DNA of 64,000 nucleotides, from positions 1 to 64,000 of the forward strand of contig JAFDWU010000002.1 in assembly GCA_018268315.1 (NCBI GenBank), given 5' to 3'. The DNA comes from Armatimonadota bacterium (lineage in GTDB: Bacteria > Armatimonadota > Fimbriimonadia > Fimbriimonadales > Fimbriimonadaceae). The translations under genes and the position numbers were made by a program. Position 1 is the stretch's first letter, and each line of letters opens with the position of its first letter. Positions 40,715 to 44,787 of this stretch are shown here, piece by piece. The notes below the pieces were generated by a model. It did no database searches and had not been told where the DNA came from. It worked only from the letters and a program-made list of their open reading frames with translations.

Positions 40715-41311
40715 ATGTCACGAATTGATCAATTGAACGCGGCAATTGCCAAGTGGGAACTTAACAACCATCCGTTCTATCAGGAGTGGAAGATGGGCAC
40801 GCTTCCAAAGGAAGCCCTCGTCGACTACTCCGGCGAGTACGGCATGTTCGTCGCCACGGTCGCCCAGGCTTGGGACACTCTCGGCTTCCCCGACTATGCC
40901 AACGAAGAGCGATACCACGAGGAGCTTTGGAAGGGCTTCCAGAAAGACCTCGGTTTCACCACGCGGTCCAACCGGATTGAGACGGAAGAGCTTTACGCGC
41001 TCGCTACAAAGCTATTTGAAGCGAAGGACACTGCCGCCGGCGCGCTCTACTCTTTCGAGGCCCAGCAGCCCAACACTTCAGCCGTCAAGCTGAAAGGACT
41101 GCTGGAGCACTACAATCTCACCGAGGCTGGCCGCGAATATTTCGCCGTCCACGCCGAGGACTTCCACGAGGTGCAGGACCTTTCCGCCGTTATCGAGAAG
41201 ATGGATGACGCATCGTTTGCCAAGACCCTAGATGCTTGCGAGCAGATGGCTCACGCTATGTGGAAGGCCCTCGACGGCGTTTATTACGCAGTCCGACCCG
41301 TAACCGCCTAA
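40715..41311 (+). CDS. CADD/TenA-like heme-oxygenase-fold diiron protein
   Basis: The protein resembles chlamydial CADD and the broader TenA-like iron-containing redox family. The start resembles CADD around FYxxW (Tyr22), then NEERYHEELW (Glu64/65, His68), LYSFEAQ (Glu115), VKLKGL (Lys125) and FAVHAEDFH (His146, Asp149, His151). These are good candidates for a dimetal site and the surrounding tyrosine and lysine. CADD is known to form p-aminobenzoate from its own tyrosine, but that activity here is inference. The longer frame begins inside tRNA-Leu, so I use the ATG at 40715; 198 residues fits the family. A hairpin follows the stop. Confidence 0.75.
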   Translation: MSRIDQLNAAIAKWELNNHPFYQEWKMGTLPKEALVDYSGEYGMFVATVAQAWDTLGFPDYANEERYHEELWKGFQKDLGFTTRSNRIETEELYALATKLFEAKDTAAGALYSFEAQQPNTSAVKLKGLLEHYNLTEAGREYFAVHAEDFHEVQDLSAVIEKMDDASFAKTLDACEQMAHAMWKALDGVYYAVRPVTA

Positions 41312-43485: not shown

Positions 43486-44787
43486 CTATTTCTTGCGGCC
43501 GCTGCGCTTCGACTTATGGCGATCGCCAAGCGAAGCTGGGCGATCAACCGGCGCGGGTTGCGTAAGCCAACTGTCCTTCGTGAAGTCGTGCCGATAGGTC
43601 AGGCTCTGCAAGACCAAACTTTCTTTAGCAGCCAAATCGTCAACCGTTGAAACTCCAGTCGAGTCCGCAACCATCTGCAACAAGCTGGGCAGGGCCCGCA
43701 AATTGCCGACATTCACCTTGCGATCCATCGCGGTAGCCATGCCGGCCTCTGAGCGCAGCACATCTTTAATCTTGCAGGTTAGCGTTCCCTGACGAGTGGT
43801 AATCGTCAACGCATCCTCGGCAGGATAGAAACGCTTCTTGGCGAACAGGATCTGGGCAATGCGGTAGGCGTCTGACTTCTGACCCGCGTGGATAAACACC
43901 GCGCTCAGCCGTTTATCGTTTATAATCGCGGCAGCGGCATCCTGGCCATGCAGTTCCCCGCCGTTCGCCAAGTCCATCACCGCAAGCGCCTTATTGTCGT
44001 CAACATCAACGCCGAAATCATGGAAATAGGCCTTGAACTCGCCGGGATTCGCTGACTTCATTTCGTACAGCATCTCACCCAAGGAGCCTGAACCTTCCTG
44101 AAGTGAGGCGAACTGGACAAAGCCCGCTGAGACGTAGCCCGTATCGTAGGTATTCAGCGAGTCAAAACCGCCTTCGAGCGTCGAAACCGCCATCATTACT
44201 TTCTGCTCGCTTGGGATAAGGCCCGCACGCTGGAACTGCGCCTTAAGGTCATCAGGCTTCCACTTGCTTAGCGGCGTACCGTCATATTCCACGCCCTGAG
44301 GGAATCGGAAGTAAGGATAGCGGTCTGGAACCGGATGATGGTCGCGCATCTGCACCGCCACTCCGTCGTCAAAGCGAACAAGGTAGGTCGTCTGTTCATA
44401 TTTGCGATAGAAGGGAGGCGGCTCGCAACCCACAAGCTTCACCAAATCATCGGGGCACGGCCCCGGATCTGAGGCCTGAGTTGAGTCTCCGGCCAGATAC
44501 TTATCCCACTGGGCTTTCGCCTTAATCCAATCGTCGAATTGGCCTGCCGGAGCGCCCGTCACTGGGTTCGCTTTGGCAATTCCGCGAGCCTTGTTGTAAT
44601 TCCAAAGCCAAACGGAGCCTTCCGGGGTCATGCCGACAACCAAATCGTCGGAGGTCTCTTCCATGTAGGCCGCGTGTTGCTCCCAACGCTGGCGAACCTG
44701 CCCTGATTCATCCGCCCACATGTGCGGTGAGGCCGTGGCGCCTAACAAACAGGCAGGCGCAAGCAACAACAGAGCAATCCCCTTCAC
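43486..44787 (-). CDS. Secreted protein with a lysozyme-like core, function unproven
   Basis: A signal peptide (about 1-19) starts at a GTG. Around residues 205-235 the sequence AVSTLEGGFDSLNTYDTGYVSAGFVQFA has the layout of lysozyme-superfamily active sites: a Glu at the end of a helix, then a Gly-rich turn and GFxQF. GSGSLGEMLYEMK follows, with a later region of alternating helices. The C-terminus is basic (KSKRSGRKK). Two Cys pairs may form disulfides. A peptidoglycan-acting enzyme is the best guess. It lies 47 bases downstream of hslU and converges with recN. Confidence 0.5.
   Translation of the reverse strand: MKGIALLLLAPACLLGATASPHMWADESGQVRQRWEQHAAYMEETSDDLVVGMTPEGSVWLWNYNKARGIAKANPVTGAPAGQFDDWIKAKAQWDKYLAGDSTQASDPGPCPDDLVKLVGCEPPPFYRKYEQTTYLVRFDDGVAVQMRDHHPVPDRYPYFRFPQGVEYDGTPLSKWKPDDLKAQFQRAGLIPSEQKVMMAVSTLEGGFDSLNTYDTGYVSAGFVQFASLQEGSGSLGEMLYEMKSANPGEFKAYFHDFGVDVDDNKALAVMDLANGGELHGQDAAAAIINDKRLSAVFIHAGQKSDAYRIAQILFAKKRFYPAEDALTITTRQGTLTCKIKDVLRSEAGMATAMDRKVNVGNLRALPSLLQMVADSTGVSTVDDLAAKESLVLQSLTYRHDFTKDSWLTQPAPVDRPASLGDRHKSKRSGRKK

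Follow-up and report, generated by a model that had tools for sequence, protein, structure and literature searches.

A short CADD-like protein of the Fimbriimonadales as a candidate self-sacrificing p-aminobenzoate synthase with a changed metal site

Few enzymes are self-sacrificing; among p-aminobenzoate (pABA) synthases of this kind, only two characterised examples are described in the literature consulted. The closest described systems to the protein considered here are CADD (CT610) of Chlamydia trachomatis, for which structures 1rcw, 8va9 and 8vag are available, and NePabS of Nitrosomonas europaea. In NePabS, Tyr25 and Lys159 are sacrificed, Tyr41 is essential, and Tyr45 and Trp99 are helpful; an F177Y variant has its preference shifted to Mn/Fe (PMC11965152). 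Members of the heme-oxygenase-like dimetal oxidase (HDO) superfamily usually bind metal through the ligand motif E-H-E-H-(D/E)-H, with a spacing that varies among HDOs (PMC11363339), and the ligand set has been described as three His and three carboxylates, 3H/3C (PMC13108848). Departures from this motif are known: in FlcD of Pseudomonas aeruginosa, a mononuclear-iron HDO, the last two alpha3 ligands are replaced, giving E-H-E-H-V-R (PMC11363339). A search of titles and the opening lines of abstracts in open-licence PMC returned no paper on a CADD-like protein in the Armatimonadota.

The window, a 64,000-nucleotide stretch of DNA from a member of this phylum, encodes on translation a protein of 198 residues ending at a TAA stop (Table 1); its reading frame is open upstream to 40556, and conservation begins at the ATG at 40715. 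This protein is probably a single-turnover, self-sacrificing pABA synthase; it belongs to a clade of its own, in which the metal site is altered. Genome content speaks for the product and conserved residues for the mechanism, while the metal site is assigned from sequence only.

Table 1. Features of the CADD-like gene and the residues aligned with those of CADD and NePabS (counts are out of 38 sequences of the order)
Feature	Position	Strand	Basis
Candidate CADD-like pABA synthase of the short type, 198 aa and TAA stop	40715..41311	+	profile, PDB and fold matches
Y22, equivalent to sacrificial Tyr27 (CADD) and Tyr25 (NePabS); 38/38	40778..40780	+	alignments; roles from PMC11965152
Y38, equivalent to essential Tyr41 of NePabS; 38/38	40826..40828	+	alignments; PMC11965152
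E64 (37/38) and E65 (38/38), candidate first carboxylate ligands	40904..40909	+	alignment
H68, aligned to the alpha1 His of CADD, candidate ligand; invariant	40916..40918	+	alignments
W72, equivalent to Trp99 of NePabS; invariant	40928..40930	+	alignments; PMC11965152
F114 (F148 in NePabS, Y141 in CADD) and E115 (candidate alpha2 carboxylate ligand); invariant	41054..41059	+	alignments
K125, equivalent to amino-donor Lys152 (CADD) and Lys159 (NePabS); invariant	41087..41089	+	alignments
Y142, equivalent to Y170 of CADD (F177 in NePabS); invariant	41138..41140	+	alignments
H146, aligned to the first alpha3 His of CADD, candidate ligand; invariant	41150..41152	+	alignments
D149 (D/N/K), H151 (16/38) and invariant E152, where CADD has its alpha3 Asp and final His	41159..41170	+	alignments

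Against the NCBIfam model for the CADD family, TIGR04305, the protein scores 93.1 bits where the cut-off is 200, and it is therefore not filed as a member. It does exceed the gathering cut-off of the Pfam model for the HDO superfamily, PF14518 (35.9 bits against 28.9). Among the 113 genomes of the order, TIGR04305 has no match at or above its cut-off and sub-cut-off matches in 38; the curated annotation model misses every short-type member of the order at its cut-off. A phmmer search of the PDB returned 9pj4 (E 1.3e-14), 1rcw (1.1e-11) and 8va9 (1.4e-11), all titled 4-aminobenzoate synthase or CT610, with the next match at E 0.26, and a profile of the 38 homologues found the same three entries at 4e-26 or better and no others up to 0.01. 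The phmmer E-values of 1e-14 to 1e-11, together with 27 invariant columns over 38 sequences, place this homology far beyond chance. Entry 9pj4 appears to be NePabS, judging by peptides that match those in PMC11965152. The CADD-like protein belongs to a distinct clade of a known kind, lying far under the curated CADD-family cut-off.

An AlphaFold2 model (seven sequences) has a mean pLDDT of 95.7 and a heme-oxygenase-like helical fold, with CADD, HrmI and UndA among its top structural matches. CADD heads the Foldseek matches (E 7e-8, TM 0.83) as well as the VIA-align comparison (Z 24.7, rmsd 1.9 Å, 190 aligned residues), where HrmI, PqqC, UndA and TenA rank after it at Z 18–22. Since the fold is shared and chains of TenA, PqqC and UndA reach Z 18–21, a TenA-type thiaminase or PqqC-like protein has to be weighed, the more so as the TenA model PF03070 gives a weak and local match of 18.1 bits, below its gathering cut-off of 22. 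Thiaminase II (TenA) has a catalytic cysteine. CADD is nevertheless better in both sequence and structure, a PF03070 search of the whole genome found nothing at E 0.001, and the distribution of the gene, described below, tracks dihydropteroate synthase (DHPS) and the absence of PabB and PabC, so that this reading is very improbable; a TenA or thiaminase identity was rejected on profile scores and fold. The original prediction of a CADD-like protein outside Chlamydia holds: the nearest solved relatives are pABA synthases by sequence and predicted fold, and CADD outranks TenA in sequence comparison as well as with Foldseek and VIA-align.

Conservation was assessed over 38 sequences, one per genome of the order and 36–58% identical to the window protein. 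The invariant columns include Y22, Y38, W72 and K125. Both the sacrificial Tyr and the amino-donor Lys of CADD and NePabS are aligned with a conserved residue (38/38); they had been singled out beforehand as the tyrosine of an FYxxW motif (F21-Y22-x-x-W25) and the lysine of VKLKGL, and each is present. The counterparts of the essential Tyr41 and the helpful Trp99 of NePabS are likewise found in 38 of 38, and the position of Tyr45 holds Y in 30 and W in 8. NePabS, through 9pj4 the best PDB sequence match, also has Phe where the short-type protein has F114; it differs in its HxxxDxxH (present in 9pj4), in the greater length of the segment ahead of its first His, and in Phe in place of Y142. CADD shares the fold, the sacrificial residues and the equivalent of Y142, but is only 25–26% identical in the structural alignment, has 3H/3C ligands, and carries Tyr where the short clade has F114; over the aligned range the short-type protein is about 23 residues shorter. 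The invariant F114/Y142 pair of the short clade, Phe as in NePabS and Tyr as in CADD, equals the Mn/Fe-preferring F177Y variant of NePabS. This gives a testable metal prediction, uncertain since the ligands differ, and raises the question of Fe/Fe or Mn/Fe. Two further residues, W53 (40871–40873; 38/38) and C175 (37/38), are conserved in the short clade and found at those columns in none of eight canonical relatives; W53 might be part of the radical path.

The candidate metal ligands had been listed in the original prediction as EE/H, E and H/D/H, with the suspicion that the metal site might differ. The first two groups are present (E64/E65/H68 and E115), and the suspicion is borne out: in the short clade ExxH replaces Ex6H (38 of 38 against none) and Hx5E occurs in all 38 and HxxxDxxH in none, which leaves the strict set of three His and three carboxylates unattained. 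The third group stood in part. H146 is invariant, but residue 149 is Asp in only 30 sequences, with Asn in six and Lys in two, no more than 16 of the 38 have His at 151, and the final His of HxxxDxxH is replaced by an invariant Glu, E152 (38/38), that had not been listed. By contrast, each of the eight complete copies of the canonical type from other genomes of the phylum has both Ex6H and HxxxDxxH, and ExxH is found in none of them. On these alignments, the apparent loss of the last His is a stronger departure than an altered ligand spacing. All eight sequences that lack D149 have His at 151, so that D149 or H151 is present in every member; as these eight sit in few clades of the tree, the trade-off is a hint rather than a test.

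In HMMER alignments the segment from H146 to E152 is one residue shorter than in CADD, and the helix of the AlphaFold2 model is broken at 148–150. A MAFFT alignment offers an alternative in which five residues are missing between H146 and E152, E152 then matching a Glu four residues past the canonical last His; if that alignment is right, the site would have fewer ligands. The HMMER alignments and the end-to-end offset of the VIA-align comparison favour the one-residue gap. The metal-binding roles of these residues are putative, being assigned from sequence. FlcD is a further HDO with replaced terminal alpha3 ligands, although its reaction is different. As FlcD works with one iron after losing its last two ligands, the short clade may hold one metal or two; because its last position is Glu, unlike that of FlcD, a second metal could be bound. 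The protein is not filed as a 3H/3C HDO, and the best reading of its sequence is as a relative of CADD that would work like CADD.

Rather more tentatively, and with slightly less than even confidence, we suggest that the self-sacrificing pABA synthase of the order has a two-His, carboxylate-rich site (E64/E65, H68, E115, H146 and E152) from which the third His has been lost. A ligand make-up of this two-His, carboxylate-rich type resembles that of ribonucleotide reductase R2 and other ferritin-like enzymes. As part of the same tentative proposal, the site would lie nearer to these than to any HDO treated in the portions of PMC11363339 and PMC13108848 consulted, and a 3H/3C site would not be a requirement of the self-sacrifice chemistry. 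With the sacrificed residues retained and the ligands altered, the clade amounts to a natural experiment on what the reaction requires of its metal site.

The reaction chemistry of the short-type protein is proposed by analogy with NePabS and CADD. O2 would be activated at an HDO-superfamily metal site that is likely to be dimetal, either Fe/Fe or Mn/Fe. Its ligands would be E65 (with E64), H68, E115, H146 and E152, to which D149 or H151 would add a further, variable one. The oxidising equivalent would pass via Y38/W72 and nearby aromatics to Y22, whose side chain would be cleaved and oxidised to the benzoate, the nitrogen coming from K125. Each pABA would cost one protein molecule, and the product would feed DHPS, the protein substituting for PabB and PabC. 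Alternatively, pABA could be made catalytically from a small molecule; Y22 and K125 would then act in binding or as radical sites and would not be consumed. The active site has indeed diverged, in its metal site and in the shorter segment before H68, and gene content bears on the product and says nothing of the mechanism; however, Y22, K125, Y38 and W72 are all invariant (38/38), and another chemistry would not need all of them, which makes catalytic turnover improbable.

The genome from which the window comes (2.8 Mb, completeness 100) contains DHPS (C2:167523-168296, also scanned as a full ORF), FolK, and one TrpG/PabA above cut-off. Its sole PabB-model match is TrpE (535.1 bits with trpE_most, cut-off 517.7; 289.2 bits with pabB, cut-off 328.4), and its sole PF01063 protein, when the match region was scanned alone, scored best as a branched-chain aminotransferase, under the cut-offs. 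As only these two proteins were found, PabB and PabC are counted as undetected by the PabB-model and PF01063 searches. The genome thus shows the pattern sought for a self-sacrificing pABA synthase, DHPS present with pabB and pabC absent. The original prediction was to be doubted if a complete pabABC set were found together with a protein closer to TenA, and neither part of that combination was found. Searches for FolE (TIGR00063) and FolE2 (PF02649) detected neither in this genome, leaving the GTP cyclohydrolase step unaccounted for and the folate route incomplete on paper.

The 113 genomes of the order were scored for the CADD-like gene, a PabB–PabC fusion (PF01063 and TIGR00553 matches in one open frame) and DHPS. 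Two of the fusions tested with NCBIfam scored best as aminodeoxychorismate synthase, both under the model cut-offs. The CADD-like gene occurs in about one third of the genomes (38/113). Among the 85 that bear DHPS, the CADD-like gene stands alone in 36 and the fusion in 41, one genome has both and seven have neither; the 28 without DHPS comprise one with the CADD-like gene (G004, 86% complete), two with the fusion (G034, 77%; G097, 65%), none with both and 25 with neither. When the 88 good-quality genomes (at least 90% completeness, at most 5% contamination) are taken, the corresponding numbers for the 68 with DHPS are 33, 29, one and five, and neither route is present, singly or together, in any of the 20 without DHPS. 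Within DHPS-bearing genomes the CADD-like gene and the fusion exclude one another with a Fisher p of about 1e-15 (all genomes) or 1e-12 (good quality), values that are uncorrected for kinship. Because genomes with DHPS carry the CADD-like gene or the fusion, and good-quality genomes without DHPS carry neither, this co-occurrence is strong genomic evidence for the CADD-like protein as a pABA source. It gives the alternative pABA route that had been suggested computational support, from DHPS without detected PabB or PabC and from exclusion against the fusion, and the short-type protein would explain why many genomes of the order have DHPS without pabB or pabC.

There are exceptions. Four good-quality genomes with DHPS (G014, G021, G047 and G090) have neither the fusion nor the CADD-like gene, and may be pABA scavengers or users of a third route; a fifth and less clear case, G112, has a separate PabC-like match. 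The profile of 38 homologues found no match in G014 or G021, and G047, G090 and G112 are absent among the matches listed. The presence of DHPS is therefore no proof of an internal pABA source. G028 is the sole genome of the 113 with both routes (L043 and L172); its neighbours in the tree, G026, G029 and G031, have one.

A tree of DHPS alone, covering 83 of the 85 genomes with DHPS (G010 and G011 were omitted for partial matches), implied 19 changes and was poorly supported, with five pairs and a median p of 0.125, and a DHPS+TrpE tree was therefore built. This comprised 60 of the 83 genomes, hand-picked: those of good quality that have an unambiguous route and a TrpE match fit for use, plus G028, G014 and G021. 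The good-quality genomes G041, G052, G077, G048 and G111 were omitted for want of a usable TrpE match; G047, G090, G112 and the lower-quality genomes were also omitted. On this tree of 60 genomes there are at least 13 route switches, exemplified by G006, which has the fusion, and its sister genome G007, which has the CADD-like gene, and a sign test on six supported independent pairs, none with the two traits in the same direction, gave a median p of 0.0625. An HDO of another function, tied to folate or one-carbon metabolism and merely tending to occur in genomes with DHPS, is consistent with a score under the CADD cut-off, a pass on the broad PF14518 only, and surroundings that are unconserved, with no folate genes among the named neighbours. 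Such a protein predicts neither the near-complete exclusion against the fusion, with its kinship-uncorrected Fisher p of about 1e-15, nor the 13 or more switches, and we regard it as unlikely. Repeated switching between a putative self-sacrificing synthase and the PabB–PabC fusion makes the order well suited to studying the replacement of vitamin routes.

The profile of the 38 homologues, searched against 291 genomes of the phylum, matched 47; besides those 38 there are nine from outside the order (L077–L085). These nine belong to the canonical type, which is longer, and a contig end truncates one of them; PabB/TrpE-type matches in their genomes are single in eight and absent in one. They share the phylum, the sacrificial residues and the expected role with the short type, but are about 30% identical to it and lie apart at 100/100 support. 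The tree has four changes across taxonomic families, the minimum being three. This separation, with a short clade that follows taxonomic families, suggests that the gene is old and mostly vertical in descent, and may have been replaced or lost time and again. The truncated copy L044, the contig-cut L085 (from motif counts and the family tree) and duplicate rows were dropped before counting. A scan of one genome per species, which reaches close relatives only, found six loci, in Armatimonadetes, Fimbriimonas, Fimbriimonadaceae or Chthonomonas. L044 is the second of two near-identical CADD-like copies about 4 kb apart in G107. Beside the canonical gene L077 (G143, contig C23), at a distance of about 2.6 kb, lies a TrpE/PabB-type match above the pabB cut-off.

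Near the CADD-like gene of the window are genes that we take, by eye from their translations, to be of PilB/PilT type; other neighbours are an isomerase-like gene, a weak pyroglutamyl-peptidase match, tRNA-Leu, L33 and RecN. A folate operon was considered and rejected, there being no folate genes among the named neighbours and no conserved neighbourhood in the relatives compared. A mobile or phage origin was also set aside: tblastn gave no plasmid match, and none was confirmed in viral contigs. A hypothetical protein at 43489–44787 on the minus strand has no NCBIfam match at 1e-5; relatives with 38–40% identity to it also lie near the CADD-like gene in L008 and L022/L035.
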